From Nocardioidaceae bacterium (GTDB taxonomy: Bacteria > Actinomycetota > Actinomycetes > Propionibacteriales > Nocardioidaceae): a stretch of DNA of 39,554 nt. This document shows, piece after piece, positions 19,808 to 38,763 of this stretch. How positions within the stretch are numbered: the first letter of the stretch is position 1; each line of letters opens with the position of its first letter. The position numbers and the translations under genes were made by a program. A model generated the notes under the pieces. The model did no database searches. It saw only the letters and a list, made by a program, of their open reading frames with translations, and was not told where the DNA came from. Location of the stretch: contig JAICWH010000013.1 in assembly GCA_025934895.1 (NCBI GenBank), positions 1 through 39,554 on the forward strand. Reading direction: 5' to 3'.

Positions 19808-21565
19808 ATGCCGACGTCAGACAGTGGTCCGAGTCGTTCGAGCTCCCGCACGCCAGAGGAGCTGCTGAGCCAGCTCGGGTTCCTCCAGGACGAGGTGTCC
19901 GAGCTGCGGCGCCGTCTTGCCGACAGCCCGCTGCACTCCCGCGCTGTCGAGCAGCGGCTCGCCGAGACCCAGCGCTCGCTCGCCGCGGTCACCTCGCAGA
20001 ACGAGCGCCTCGCGCAGACCCTGCGGGAGGCCCGTGACCAGATCATGACGCTGAAGGAGGAGGTCGACCGGCTCGCCCAGCCGCCGGCGGGGTTCGGCAC
20101 CTTCTTGGCGCGCAACGAGGACGACTCGATCGACGTGTTCACCGGCGGGCGGAAGCTCCGCGTCAACGTCAGTCCGTCGGTGGACCTCGACGAGCTGCAG
20201 CGCGGTCAGGAGGTGATGCTCAACGAGGCTCTCAACGTCGTCGCCGCGCTCGAGTTCGAGAAGGTCGGCGAGGTCGTGATGCTCAAGGAGGTGATGGCCG
20301 ACGGCGACCGGGTGCTCGTGATCGCGAACGCCGACGAGGAGCGGGTGGTCCGCATCGCCGAGCCGCTGCGCCGGGTGAAGATCAGGGCCGGGGACTCTCT
20401 CCTGCTGGACACGCGCTCCGGCTACGTCTACGAGAAGGTCCCGAAGTCCGAGGTCGAGGAGCTGGTCCTCGAGGAGGTCCCGGACATCGACTACGACGAC
20501 ATCGGCGGCCTCTTCGGTCAGATCGAGACGATCCGCGATGCCGTCGAGCTGCCCTACCTGCACCCTGAGCTGTTCATCGAGCACGAGCTCAAGCCACCCA
20601 AGGGCGTGCTCCTCTACGGCCCTCCCGGCTGCGGCAAGACGCTGATCGCCAAGGCGGTGGCCAACTCGCTCGCGAAGAAGGTCGCGGCCAAGACCGGCCA
20701 GGAGGGGAAGTCCTACTTCCTCAACATCAAGGGCCCCGAGCTGCTCAACAAGTACGTCGGTGAGACCGAGCGGCACATCCGGCTCGTCTTCCAGCGGGCG
20801 CGGGAGAAGGCCAGCGAGGGCACCCCGGTCATCGTGTTCTTCGACGAGATGGACTCGCTGTTCCGGACCCGTGGGTCCGGGGTCTCCTCCGACGTCGAGA
20901 ACACCATCGTCCCGCAGCTGCTCAGCGAGATCGACGGTGTGGAGACGCTGGAGAACGTGCTGGTCATCGGCGCCTCGAACCGCGAGGACATGATCGACCC
21001 GGCCATCCTCCGGCCCGGTCGCCTCGACGTGAAGATCAAGATCGAGCGGCCCGACGCCGAGTCGGCGCGGGACATCTTCTCCAAGTACCTCACCGCGCAC
21101 CTGCCGCTGCACGCCGAGGACCTAGCGGAGTTCGGCGGTGACCGGGCGGCCTGCGTCGGCGGGATGATCCGGGCAACGGTGGAGCGGATGTACACCGAGA
21201 CCGAGGAGAACCGCTTCCTCGAGGTGACCTACGCCAACGGCGACAAGGAGGTCCTCTACTTCAAGGACTTCAACTCAGGCGCCATGATCCAGAACATCGT
21301 GGACCGGGCCAAGAAGATGGCGATCAAGGACCTCCTGGACCTGAACCAGAAGGGCCTGCGGGTCACGCACCTCCTCCAGGCCTGCGTGGACGAGTTCAAG
21401 GAGAATGAGGACCTCCCGAACACCACGAACCCCGACGACTGGGCCCGGATCTCCGGCAAGAAGGGCGAGCGGATCGTGTTCATCCGGACCCTGATCACCG
21501 GCAAGCAGGGCACCGAGCCGGGCCGGTCCATCGACACGGTTGCGAACACGGGCCAGTACCTCTAG
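19808..21565 (+). CDS. arc: proteasome-associated AAA ATPase ARC/Mpa
   Basis: This hexameric AAA+ unfoldase captures pupylated proteins and feeds them into the 20S proteasome. The 585-residue chain starts with a coiled coil (about 15-85, [18 protein letters not shown] onward) that would bind Pup. Tandem OB domains follow, about 95-230. The AAA module has Walker A GPPGCGKT (271-278), Walker [12 protein letters not shown] and Arg-finger region [11 protein letters not shown]. The last residues, GQYL, form the gate-opening motif that docks on the PrcA ring. The ATG at 19808 is preceded by a strong GGAGGTGG. In mycobacteria the same gene is called mpa. Confidence 0.98.
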
Positions 21566-21568
21566 GTC

Positions 21569-21591
21569 GCTGAGTCGGCACAACCGCAGAG
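21569..21591 (+). repeat. degenerate copy of the convergent-end repeat
   Basis: GCTGAGTCGGC followed by ACAACCGCAG matches the family core and tail with a few changes. It fills the 42-bp space between the arc stop and the stop of the NUDIX/small membrane protein frame on the other strand. Confidence 0.55.
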
Positions 21592-21607
21592 CTGAACCGT
21601 CGGTGAC

Positions 21608-21724
21608 CTACTTCAAGCGTTGGGTGCCGGGCTTGTGCGCGCGGCCCTCGATGCCCCGCGCGCCCCACCTGAACAAGGCGATGAACACGATGGCAACCAC
21701 CACGAGACCGATCCAGAAGAACAT
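21608..21724 (-). CDS. small single-helix membrane protein (internal, in-frame start)
   Basis: Thirty-eight residues starting [20 protein letters not shown], then a basic, polar tail [16 protein letters not shown]. The ATG at 21724 is preceded by GTGGAGGC, a good ribosome site, although it lies in the same frame as the NUDIX ORF. It has the look of a free-standing small inner-membrane protein: one helix followed by a positive cytoplasmic tail. It may be made separately, only as part of the NUDIX fusion, or both. No function is known to me. Confidence 0.5.
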   Translation of the reverse strand: MFFWIGLVVVAIVFIALFRWGARGIEGRAHKPGTQRLK

Positions 21725-22324
21725 GCCTCCACGGTAGGTCACCACCGCAACGGCGCCCACTGCGCCTGCGGATGCGCCGGGTCGGCAGGTGAGGGAGGTG
21801 AGAGCCGCGTAGTCGGCCACCGCGTCGGTGGCCAGCCGGGTCAAGAGGGCCCGGGTGTCGGGAACGAACGCCCACAACCGGTCCGCCAAGCGGGCGTCCA
21901 GCTCGGCCAGGGACAGCCAGGCGCCCCACACCACCTCGCCGTCAGCATGCCGCACCGGGCCCGACCAGGTGGTCTCGAAGCAGTGCTCGACGCAGCGGGT
22001 GGTGTCGTCCTCGTAGACGTTGAGGCCCAGCGGCCGCAGGTGCGACCCGCTGATCCCGAGCTCCTCGGCGAGCTCCCTCGCGGCCGAGGCAGCGGGGTCC
22101 TCCCCGAAGGTCAGCACCCCTCCGGCCGCAGCATCGTGCTGGCCGGGCGCCCAGTCCTTGTCCGGTGACCGCCGATGCACGTAGATCCGGCCGTGCTCGT
22201 CGCGCACCAGGATGCCTGTCGTGGCGTGCATCAGGTTCTCGCGGCGTACGACGGCCCGCTCGGCGTGACCCACGACGACGCCGGAACGGTCCACCAGGGC
22301 GACCACCTCGGGGCTATTGGACAT
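21608..22324 (-). CDS. NUDIX hydrolase with a fused C-terminal membrane tail
   Basis: This 238-residue ORF has a NUDIX domain in residues 1-175. The NUDIX box is complete, from [17 protein letters not shown] to LAEELG, matching G-x5-E-x7-RE-U-x-EE-x-G-U. The domain resembles the IPP-isomerase-like/YfcD branch of NUDIX enzymes. The normal domain end is around residue 178. After it come TCRPGASAG, encoded by a copy of the dispersed repeat (21765-21790), a short linker and a 38-residue segment with one membrane helix that has its own ribosome site. The ORF thus looks like a NUDIX gene read through into a small downstream gene. The start at 22324 is divergent from dop with 40 bp between. Confidence 0.85.
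21765..21790 (-). repeat. convergent-end repeat copy inside the NUDIX ORF
   Basis: On the minus strand ACCTGCCGACCCGGC followed by GCATCCGCAGG, a near-consensus copy of the 26-bp family. It encodes TCRPGASAG at residues 179-187 of the NUDIX ORF, right at the end of the enzyme domain. Confidence 0.85.
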
Positions 22325-22364: not shown

Positions 22365-23873
22365 ATGAGTGTGCGGCGGATCATGGGCACCGAGACCGAG
22401 TTCGGGATCTCGGTGCAGGGCCAGCCCACCGCCAACCCGATGGTGGCCTCCTCGCAGGTCGTGAACGCCTACGCCAGCAGCAACCTGCGCGCCCGCCGGG
22501 CCCGCTGGGACTTCGAGGAGGAGTCCCCGCTCCGTGACGCCCGCGGGTTCGACATGTCCCGGGAGAGCGCCGACCCGAGCCAGCTGACCGACGAGGACCT
22601 CGGCCTGGCAAACGTGATCCTCACCAACGGCGCACGGCTCTACGTCGACCACGCGCACCCGGAGTACAGCACCCCCGAGTGCACCAACCCCCGCGACGTC
22701 CTCAAGTGGGACAAGGCCGGTGAGCTGGTGGCCCTGGACGCCACCCGGTTCGCCGCCACGATTCCCGGGACCGCCCCGATCGTGCTCTACAAGAACAACA
22801 CCGACAACAAGGGCGCGTCCTACGGTGCGCACGAGAACTACCTGATGCGTCGCTCCACGCCGTTCAGCGAGATCGTCCGCCACCTGACACCGTTCTTCGT
22901 CAGCCGGCAGGTCGTCACCGGCGCCGGCCGGGTCGGGATCGGTCAGGACGGCCGCGAGCACGGCTTCCAGGTCAGCCAGCGGGCCGACTACTTCGAGGTG
23001 GAGGTAGGCCTGGAGACGACCCTCAAGCGGCCGATCATCAACACCCGCGACGAGCCGCACGCCGACCCCGAGAAGTACCGCCGCCTGCACGTCATCATCG
23101 GCGACGCCAACCTCGCCGAGGTCTCCGGCTACCTGAAGGTGGGCACCACCTCCCTGGTGCTGGCCATGATCGAGGATCGGTTCATCGGTCGTGACCTGGC
23201 CGTCGAGCAGCCGGTCCGCGGCCTGCGCGACGTCTCCCACGACCCGACCCTGAAGCACCTGCTCGGCATGGCCGACGGCAGGAGGCTGACCGCCGTACAG
23301 CTGCAGATGGAGTACCTCGACCTGGCGAGGAAGTACGTCGAGGACCGCCTCGGCTCCGACGCGGACGAGCAGACCGTCGACGTGCTGGCCCGCTGGGAGT
23401 CGGTGCTCACCCGGCTCGAGCGTGACCCGATGCTGTGCGCGCGCGAGCTGGACTGGGTCGCGAAGCTGCAGCTCCTCGAGCAGTACCGCGACCGGGACGG
23501 GCTGGAGTGGGACGACGCCAAGCTGCACGCGATCGACCTGCAGTACGCCGACCTCCGACCCGACAAGGGCCTCTACCACCGGCTGCTCCGGCTCGGCCGG
23601 CTGGACCGGCTGCTCAGCGACGACGAGGTCGCCGCAGCGATCCATCTGCCCCCGGTGGACACCCGCGCCTACTTCCGCGGCCGCTGCCTGGAGAAGTACT
23701 CCGACCAGATCGCGGCCGCCTCGTGGGACTCGGTGATCTTCGACCTCCCCGGTCGTGAGTCGCTCCAGCGGGTCCCCACGATCGACCCCATGCGAGGCAG
23801 CCGGGCCCACGTCGGGGAACTGCTGGACCGTTGTGACACGGCGGAGGACCTGTTTGCCGCCCTGACTCGGTAG
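22365..23873 (+). CDS. dop: Pup deamidase/depupylase
   Basis: Dop removes Pup from tagged proteins and, where Pup ends in Gln, deamidates it. The 502-residue protein has the glutamine-synthetase-like fold of the Dop/PafA family, starting [16 protein letters not shown] with the ATP/metal Glu residues. Asp95 in [16 protein letters not shown] is at the position of the catalytic Asp of the family. The segment around residues 40-80, between the first strands, is longer than in PafA, as is typical for the Dop loop. [18 protein letters not shown] and the [12 protein letters not shown] nucleotide region follow. Because the Pup gene here already encodes a terminal Glu, only depupylase activity should be needed. 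Confidence 0.97.
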
Positions 23874-36852: not shown

Positions 36853-36918
36853 CCCCCCGGGACCTGCCGAGTCGGCGCGTCCGCAGGCCCCCAACCTGCC
36901 GAGTCGGCGCGTCCGCAG
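36853..36918 (+). repeat. left arm of a 66-bp perfect inverted repeat
   Basis: This block is the exact reverse complement of 38698-38763 and begins with CCCCCCGGG. It contains most of the first two copies of the left repeat array. Confidence 0.85.
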
Positions 36919-37013
36919 ACCCCCAACCTGCCGAGTCGGCGCGTCCGCAGGCTGGGACCGGGTCGAGTCGGCGCGTCCGCAGCCGCAACCGGGTCGAGTC
37001 GGCGGGTTGGCAG
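36862..37013 (+). repeat. array of five convergent-end repeats
   Basis: Copies start at 36862, 36894, 36926, 36957 and 36988 (period 31-32, 5-6 base gaps). The first three have core GCCGAGTCGGC and a CCTGC/GCAG(G/A) pair at the ends; the last two read GTCGAGTCGGC and the fifth has a diverged tail. The array fills the space between the convergent helY and AsnC genes. Confidence 0.95.
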
Positions 37014-38665: not shown

Positions 38666-38754
38666 CCTGCGGGCGCGCCGGCTCGACCCGGTTCGGCCTG
38701 CGGACGCGCCGACTCGGCAGGTTGGGGGCCTGCGGACGCGCCGACTCGGCAGGT
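38666..38754 (-). repeat. three inverted copies of the convergent-end repeat
   Basis: Copies at 38666-38691, 38697-38722 and 38729-38754 point opposite to the copies at 38510-38599. A partial copy precedes them at about 38646-38660. The two right copies are identical to copies in the left array, and the gap TGGGGG is the complement of the CCCCCA gap there. Confidence 0.93.
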
Positions 38755-38763
38755 CCCGGGGGG
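38698..38763 (-). repeat. right arm of a 66-bp perfect inverted repeat
   Basis: Exact reverse complement of 36853-36918. The two arms bound a 1.9-kb segment carrying the AsnC and exonuclease genes. Confidence 0.85.

Follow-up and report, generated by a model that had tools for sequence, protein, structure and literature searches.

A NUDIX hydrolase gene that runs through a dispersed repeat into a probably inverted small membrane-protein gene

A NUDIX hydrolase gene of a Nocardioidaceae bacterium reads without a stop through a copy of a dispersed repeat and into the gene for a single-helix membrane protein. The fused gene lies in a stretch of 39,554 nucleotides, hereinafter the window, between two conserved neighbours, mpa and dop (Table 1). 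Both steps behind it, loss of the NUDIX stop at the repeat and inversion of the neighbouring small gene, are readable from relatives without them. On balance, we favor a reading in which stop loss was combined with a micro-inversion, probably at facing repeat copies; separate production of the small protein probably continues, and the fusion is probably a by-product. That a dispersed repeat can cost a gene its stop is already known; the neighbor gene flipped into the tail is the element added here.

Table 1. Features of the mpa-dop locus, in window coordinates
Feature	Position	Strand	Basis or remark
Fused ORF: NUDIX enzyme, repeat-encoded linker and membrane tail	21608..22324	-	238 aa; ORF, Pfam and model
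NUDIX hydrolase part, residues 1-178	21791..22324	-	Nudix box intact by eye; nearest experimental structure YfcD 2fkb
38-aa single-helix membrane protein gene, starting at M201 of the fused ORF	21608..21724	-	flipped relative to 4/4 congeners having the gene
Repeat copy facing left, encoding residues 179-187, at the stop position of the orthologues	21765..21790	-	0 mismatches to core
Degenerate facing repeat copy, 3 nt past the mpa stop	21569..21590	+	4 mismatches to core
GGTGACCTAC, left arm of perfect 10-bp inverted repeat	21602..21611	+	alternative break point
GGTGACCTAC, right arm of perfect 10-bp inverted repeat	21734..21743	-	alternative break point
TACCGT, -10-like box, 6 nt ahead of the ATG of the small gene	21731..21736	-	TANNNT in 5/5 small genes
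mpa, proteasome ATPase, conserved left neighbor	19808..21565	+	similarity, congener synteny
dop, depupylase, conserved right neighbor	22365..23873	+	similarity, congener synteny

An earlier note, made from the letters of this DNA alone, had described one frame leading from a NUDIX domain through a repeat copy into a 38-residue single-helix protein. Consistent with that description, the minus-strand frame is open over its whole length of 238 residues, and the sequence confirms that the nine residues following the NUDIX part are encoded by the repeat copy. Pfam places the NUDIX domain at residues 33-153 (57.4 bits, against a cut-off of 21.1), and a Nudix box was found by eye in the fused ORF. 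The nearest curated family and structure to the NUDIX part is YfcD (2fkb). Specifically, the likeness to YfcD-like hydrolases extends over the sequence and fold of residues 4-158, whereas the window protein additionally carries a linker and a helix, and its NUDIX part falls below the YfcD NCBIfam equivalog cut-off (105.6 bits versus 152). The predicted structure of the 238-residue protein, built on an alignment of five sequences, has a mean pLDDT of 78.9. The NUDIX fold is confident up to about residue 180, residues 181-204 have low confidence, and a separate helix is predicted at residues 203-225. By reading, the residues after this helix include six Arg or Lys and one Glu.

A search for the NUDIX gene covered 149 sampled genomes of the family. 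The window genome and 34 others gave matches at an E value of 1.1e-27 or better, and the 29 of these 34 that came with loci were compared. In 25 of the 29, the stop falls at query residue 168-192, and the other four carry different, soluble C-terminal tails. Pfam identifies an aminoacyl-tRNA editing domain (tRNA_edit) in the tail at locus L018 and a phosphotransferase domain (APH) at L020 and L024, and the tail at L021 is assigned by resemblance to these. The nearest comparison, from congener G062, ends in LTSLG followed by the stop, whereas the window protein reads LTSL and then the repeat-encoded TCRPGASAG; the stop was thus lost exactly at the start of the repeat. The comparison supports the proposal of the earlier note that the repeat removed the stop of the enzyme gene: orthologues lacking the repeat end at the position where it starts, so that stop loss accompanies the repeat. 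By hydropathy, none of the 29 has a membrane helix in its tail, and none shares the tail encoded by the dispersed repeat. Because the repeat copy occupies the position of the former NUDIX stop, the enzyme frame runs through into the membrane protein, and a ribosome completing the NUDIX gene must now yield the membrane-tailed form.

The same earlier account implies that the repeat joined the NUDIX gene to a separate small gene that already pointed the same way downstream of it. The first part is supported, as relatives do have a separate small gene. The second is not: in all four congeners with both genes, the small gene is on the opposite strand, in the order mpa(+) small(+) NUDIX(-) dop(+), so an inversion is needed besides the stop loss. 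In the two remaining genomes of the six others in the genus, the search found neither of the two genes. The intermediate state, with repeat present and small gene unflipped, does not occur among the four congeners with the small gene. The flip is confined to the small gene in the comparison with congener G046, in which order and strand are unchanged for all 29 other comparable genes; six of the 35 called window genes fall in gaps between stretches or are unmatched. The small gene has a single match in its own genome.

The small protein is identical to its congener copies at 20-24 of 38 residues. Compared with the four congeners, the window gene changes least at second codon positions in every case (7-10 of 38), with 11-14 changes at first and 12-16 at third positions, the third changing most in three of the four comparisons. 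Among the congener genes themselves, second positions differ at 4-8, lower than the 7-10 seen with the window gene, and selection may thus have slackened in the window. By eye, the mpa-dop interval of G046, G055 and G011 (L062, L064 and L145) holds other very small hydrophobic ORFs.

Four trees were built, from mpa plus dop and from eight genes, each with FastTree and IQ-TREE. Each of the four places the window genome next to or among plus-orientation congeners (G046, G068, G062). Support is uneven. In FastTree, the pairing with G046 receives 0.947 in the first tree, and the third tree has values of 0.658 (with G068) and 0.854; IQ-TREE bootstrap values for the pair with G046 are 64 and 55. One inversion on the window lineage would be the simplest reading of these sequence comparisons. 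The modest tree support leaves some room for the reverse, an ancestral minus orientation with the congeners flipped, but this would need more than one inversion given the placement in all four trees, and we regard it as highly improbable. An assembly or sequencing artefact is likewise very unlikely. The assembly is a draft of 247 contigs, several of which end in repeat arrays, but both repeat copies at the locus are single and dissimilar, making a misjoin there unlikely. Moreover, genome completeness is 99.91% and contamination 1.36%, the small gene and its promoter are intact, and the collinearity with G046 extends to all 29 other genes.

The repeat is abundant in the genome. Genome-wide, a 20-nt core has 472 matches with at most three mismatches, against 20 for the reversed pattern. 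Copies were surveyed in 41 stretches of the same genome (433 kb), picked for holding repeats and including the window. A 22-nt core with at most four mismatches gives 271 copies in 98 arrays, against 15 control matches; 160 of the copies have no mismatch (control, 0) and 17 have four (control, 14). The unit is about 22-26 nt long, units are spaced at 32-nt steps, and a variant of the consensus is free of stops in all six frames. With an array assigned to a same-strand gene end when the gene ends anywhere from a 60-nt overlap to 70 nt before it, 40 of the 98 arrays have such an end, 38 of them lying 3-52 nt past the stop and two overlapping the end of the gene.

Neighboring arrays tend to face each other. 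Pairs were counted among 82 of the 98 arrays, namely those with a copy of at most two mismatches, plus the degenerate copy at 21569, which was added by hand. Within 2 kb, 25 of 28 pairs are in facing orientation, locus pair included, and 24 of 27 without it. The 17-970 bp between paired arrays are mostly unrelated sequence (23 pairs compared, from loci L090-L129 and the window). All-against-all blastn of the 23 centers found four between-center matches (three among L099, L116 and L120, one between L102 and L110) and one self-match; a shared core that would make paired arrays one mobile element was rejected, there being no general core.

At the locus, the flipped piece sits between the copy at the NUDIX end and the facing copy next to mpa, the same layout as in the facing array pairs above. 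The mpa-side copy, which the earlier note had missed, is identical to the other at 16 of 22 positions and to a consensus variant at 18 of 22. Matches with four mismatches are, as the control counts above indicate, mostly chance in general; the position of this one just past the mpa stop makes a chance origin unlikely. For the 42 nt that separate the mpa stop from the small gene, the expected number of such copies on this strand is only 0.0004, a value computed post hoc. Just inside the two facing copies lies a perfect 10-bp inverted repeat; its arms have three matches in the window, against 0.04 expected.

These observations suggest a two-step origin. First, a repeat copy, of the high-copy type with a 32-nt period that often lies just 3' of stops, would have come to border the NUDIX gene at its 3' end, and the NUDIX stop, absent here by comparison with the orthologues, would have been lost at the repeat; this would have preceded the second step. 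Second, a piece of about 120-220 bp with the small gene and its own promoter, whose changed orientation is seen against the congeners, would have inverted, with recombination either at the two facing copies or at the 10-bp arms that lie immediately within them. The small gene would then have come to lie on the NUDIX strand and in frame with that gene. At 16/22 identity, the facing copies are now too divergent to recombine efficiently by homology. The recombination site is therefore a guess, and either the facing repeats or the 10-bp arms may have been the recombining pair.

The inversion could also have been unrelated to the repeats, with break points at the 10-bp arms, for instance, and the part of the repeat limited to the loss of the NUDIX stop. 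The weakness of the mpa-side copy, with its four mismatches, and the perfect GGTGACCTAC arms right at the ends of the small gene speak for this; we judge it unlikely, as the facing layout is usual in this genome and the mpa-side copy is so rarely expected by chance. A flanking by inverted repeats is also what a reversible switch between a fused and an unfused state would have. Phase variation of this kind is nevertheless extremely improbable: the repeat arms are far from identical and perfect homology is limited to 10 bp, gene calling finds nothing else, and hence no recombinase, in the mpa-dop interval, and the repeat copy stays put, so that the NUDIX stop would be missing in both states.

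Stop loss at the repeat is not restricted to the NUDIX gene. When 81 arrays were scanned for coding frames entering them, four were found: the NUDIX gene, one mid-gene match, taken for chance, and two other gene ends, so that three of the 81 arrays are read as gene tails. A PhzF-like gene (L105:4201-5166, 321 aa) has a repeat-encoded end, PAESARPQA; its counterparts in all six congeners stop at about residue 309-315, and the repeat tail begins at 313. A UbiE-like gene (L123:4291-5034, 247 aa) ends in PADPARPQA, also encoded by a repeat copy; all six congeners stop at 229, leaving nine extra residues before the repeat tail. The stop loss at the NUDIX repeat is thus not a single accident, and the genus can serve as a natural series for studying how frequently repeats lengthen proteins and whether such additions are retained. 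The NUDIX gene reads the repeat in a different frame from the other two, and it alone of the three continues into another gene.

Extending this, paired facing stop-free repeats could be seen as a maker of protein ends, which tailed genes and flipped the small gene, with a functional membrane NUDIX enzyme and a small protein still made separately; as a whole, this broader scheme appears quite unlikely. In the window, the genes flanked by repeats at 36.9-38.8 kb are in congener order, indicating that flipping is not general. For one candidate second gene flipped between arrays (L097, 14622-15092), relatives occur in three of six congeners; they are 42-46% identical and lack its neighbors.

The small gene carries signals of its own. 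Its ATG, codon 201 of the fused frame, is at 21722-21724 with GTGGAGG directly ahead, which the earlier note had read as a ribosome site. One base separates GGAGG from the ATG, a spacing too short for a ribosome site, and that reading gives way to a conserved predicted leaderless-type promoter, which fits better. Specifically, each of the five small genes carries TANNNT with exactly 6 nt between the box and the start codon, against a background of 0.00045 per position in stretches of the same genome. In M. tuberculosis, where the title of the study reports an extensive leaderless transcriptome, TANNNT boxes are described as centered 7-12 bp before 73% of primary starts (Cortes et al., PMC3898074). 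Because the box moved along with the gene, the small protein is probably still made alone, most likely from this predicted leaderless promoter. The locus thereby suggests a route by which a leaderless gene could survive relocation inside the frame of another gene.

The fused protein itself could have been selected as a NUDIX hydrolase that the helix anchors in the membrane. Consistent with this, the frame is open without damage to the sequence, the catalytic domain is conserved, and members of the NUDIX family in other genera have gained C-terminal domains (the four tailed orthologues of the 29), indicating that the C-terminus tolerates fusion; a working membrane form may therefore exist. Against it, the linker and tail have low model confidence and no orthologue carries a membrane tail. 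The topology is also unfavorable. By the positive-inside rule, the Arg/Lys-rich end after the helix favors the cell interior, while a cytosolic NUDIX domain would force that end outside. Selection of the fusion is therefore unlikely in our judgment; given the lack of membrane-tailed orthologues, the low-confidence linker and the positive tail, we consider it most likely a by-product that is tolerated. The locus illustrates how repeats may give rise to new protein ends, the usefulness of the joined protein being only hypothetical.

The closest precedent for the stop loss is the Erwinia amidase gene ECA3499, where an intergenic ERIC/RU-1 repeat is described as fused at the 3' end, eliminating the normal stop (PMC2759123). 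As here, the tail described there lies past the conserved domain and is missing from the genes of other species (PMC2759123). In contrast, ERIC/RU-1 is a 127-bp element, longer than the units found here, and the passages on ECA3499 mention no flipped and joined neighbor gene such as the one at this locus (PMC2759123). Rickettsia palindromic elements are similarly described as read in frame within unrelated proteins, but they are about 150 bp long, encode a conserved peptide and lie in genomic ORFs, whereas the present repeat has a short unit and is read at gene ends in two frames (PMC10969869). As far as our partial coverage of the literature extends, no report was found of this repeat, including in Nocardioides, or of such a gene flip.

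The arrays also resemble REP/BIME arrays, described as high-copy extragenic repeats with regular spacing and opposed copies (PMC2817692). In contrast to these, the REP-type Y1 transposase family PF01797 has no match in the genome, with the control positive in 5 of 14 genomes, and a RAYT was accordingly rejected as the driver of the repeat. Folding z-scores of four repeat stretches (-0.24, 0.19, -0.50 and -1.27) are near the shuffled means, so the units are not markedly more foldable than shuffles.

The repeat is patchy in the family. With at most one mismatch, it has 322 matches in its own genome and 29, 14, 3 and 1 in four others, and it is absent at this threshold from 144 of the 149 sampled genomes. 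Viral contigs gave no exact match. Variants of the repeat, mostly with TCTGCAGG or TCCGCAGC ends, occur in G092, from another genus, and in the congener G033, and may reflect spread between lineages. In the window, 36853-36921 and 38695-38763 form a 69-nt inverted repeat, 99% complementary and built of the same repeat units, around 1773 nt with two called genes in congener order; recent copying between arrays is one possible reason for this near-identity.
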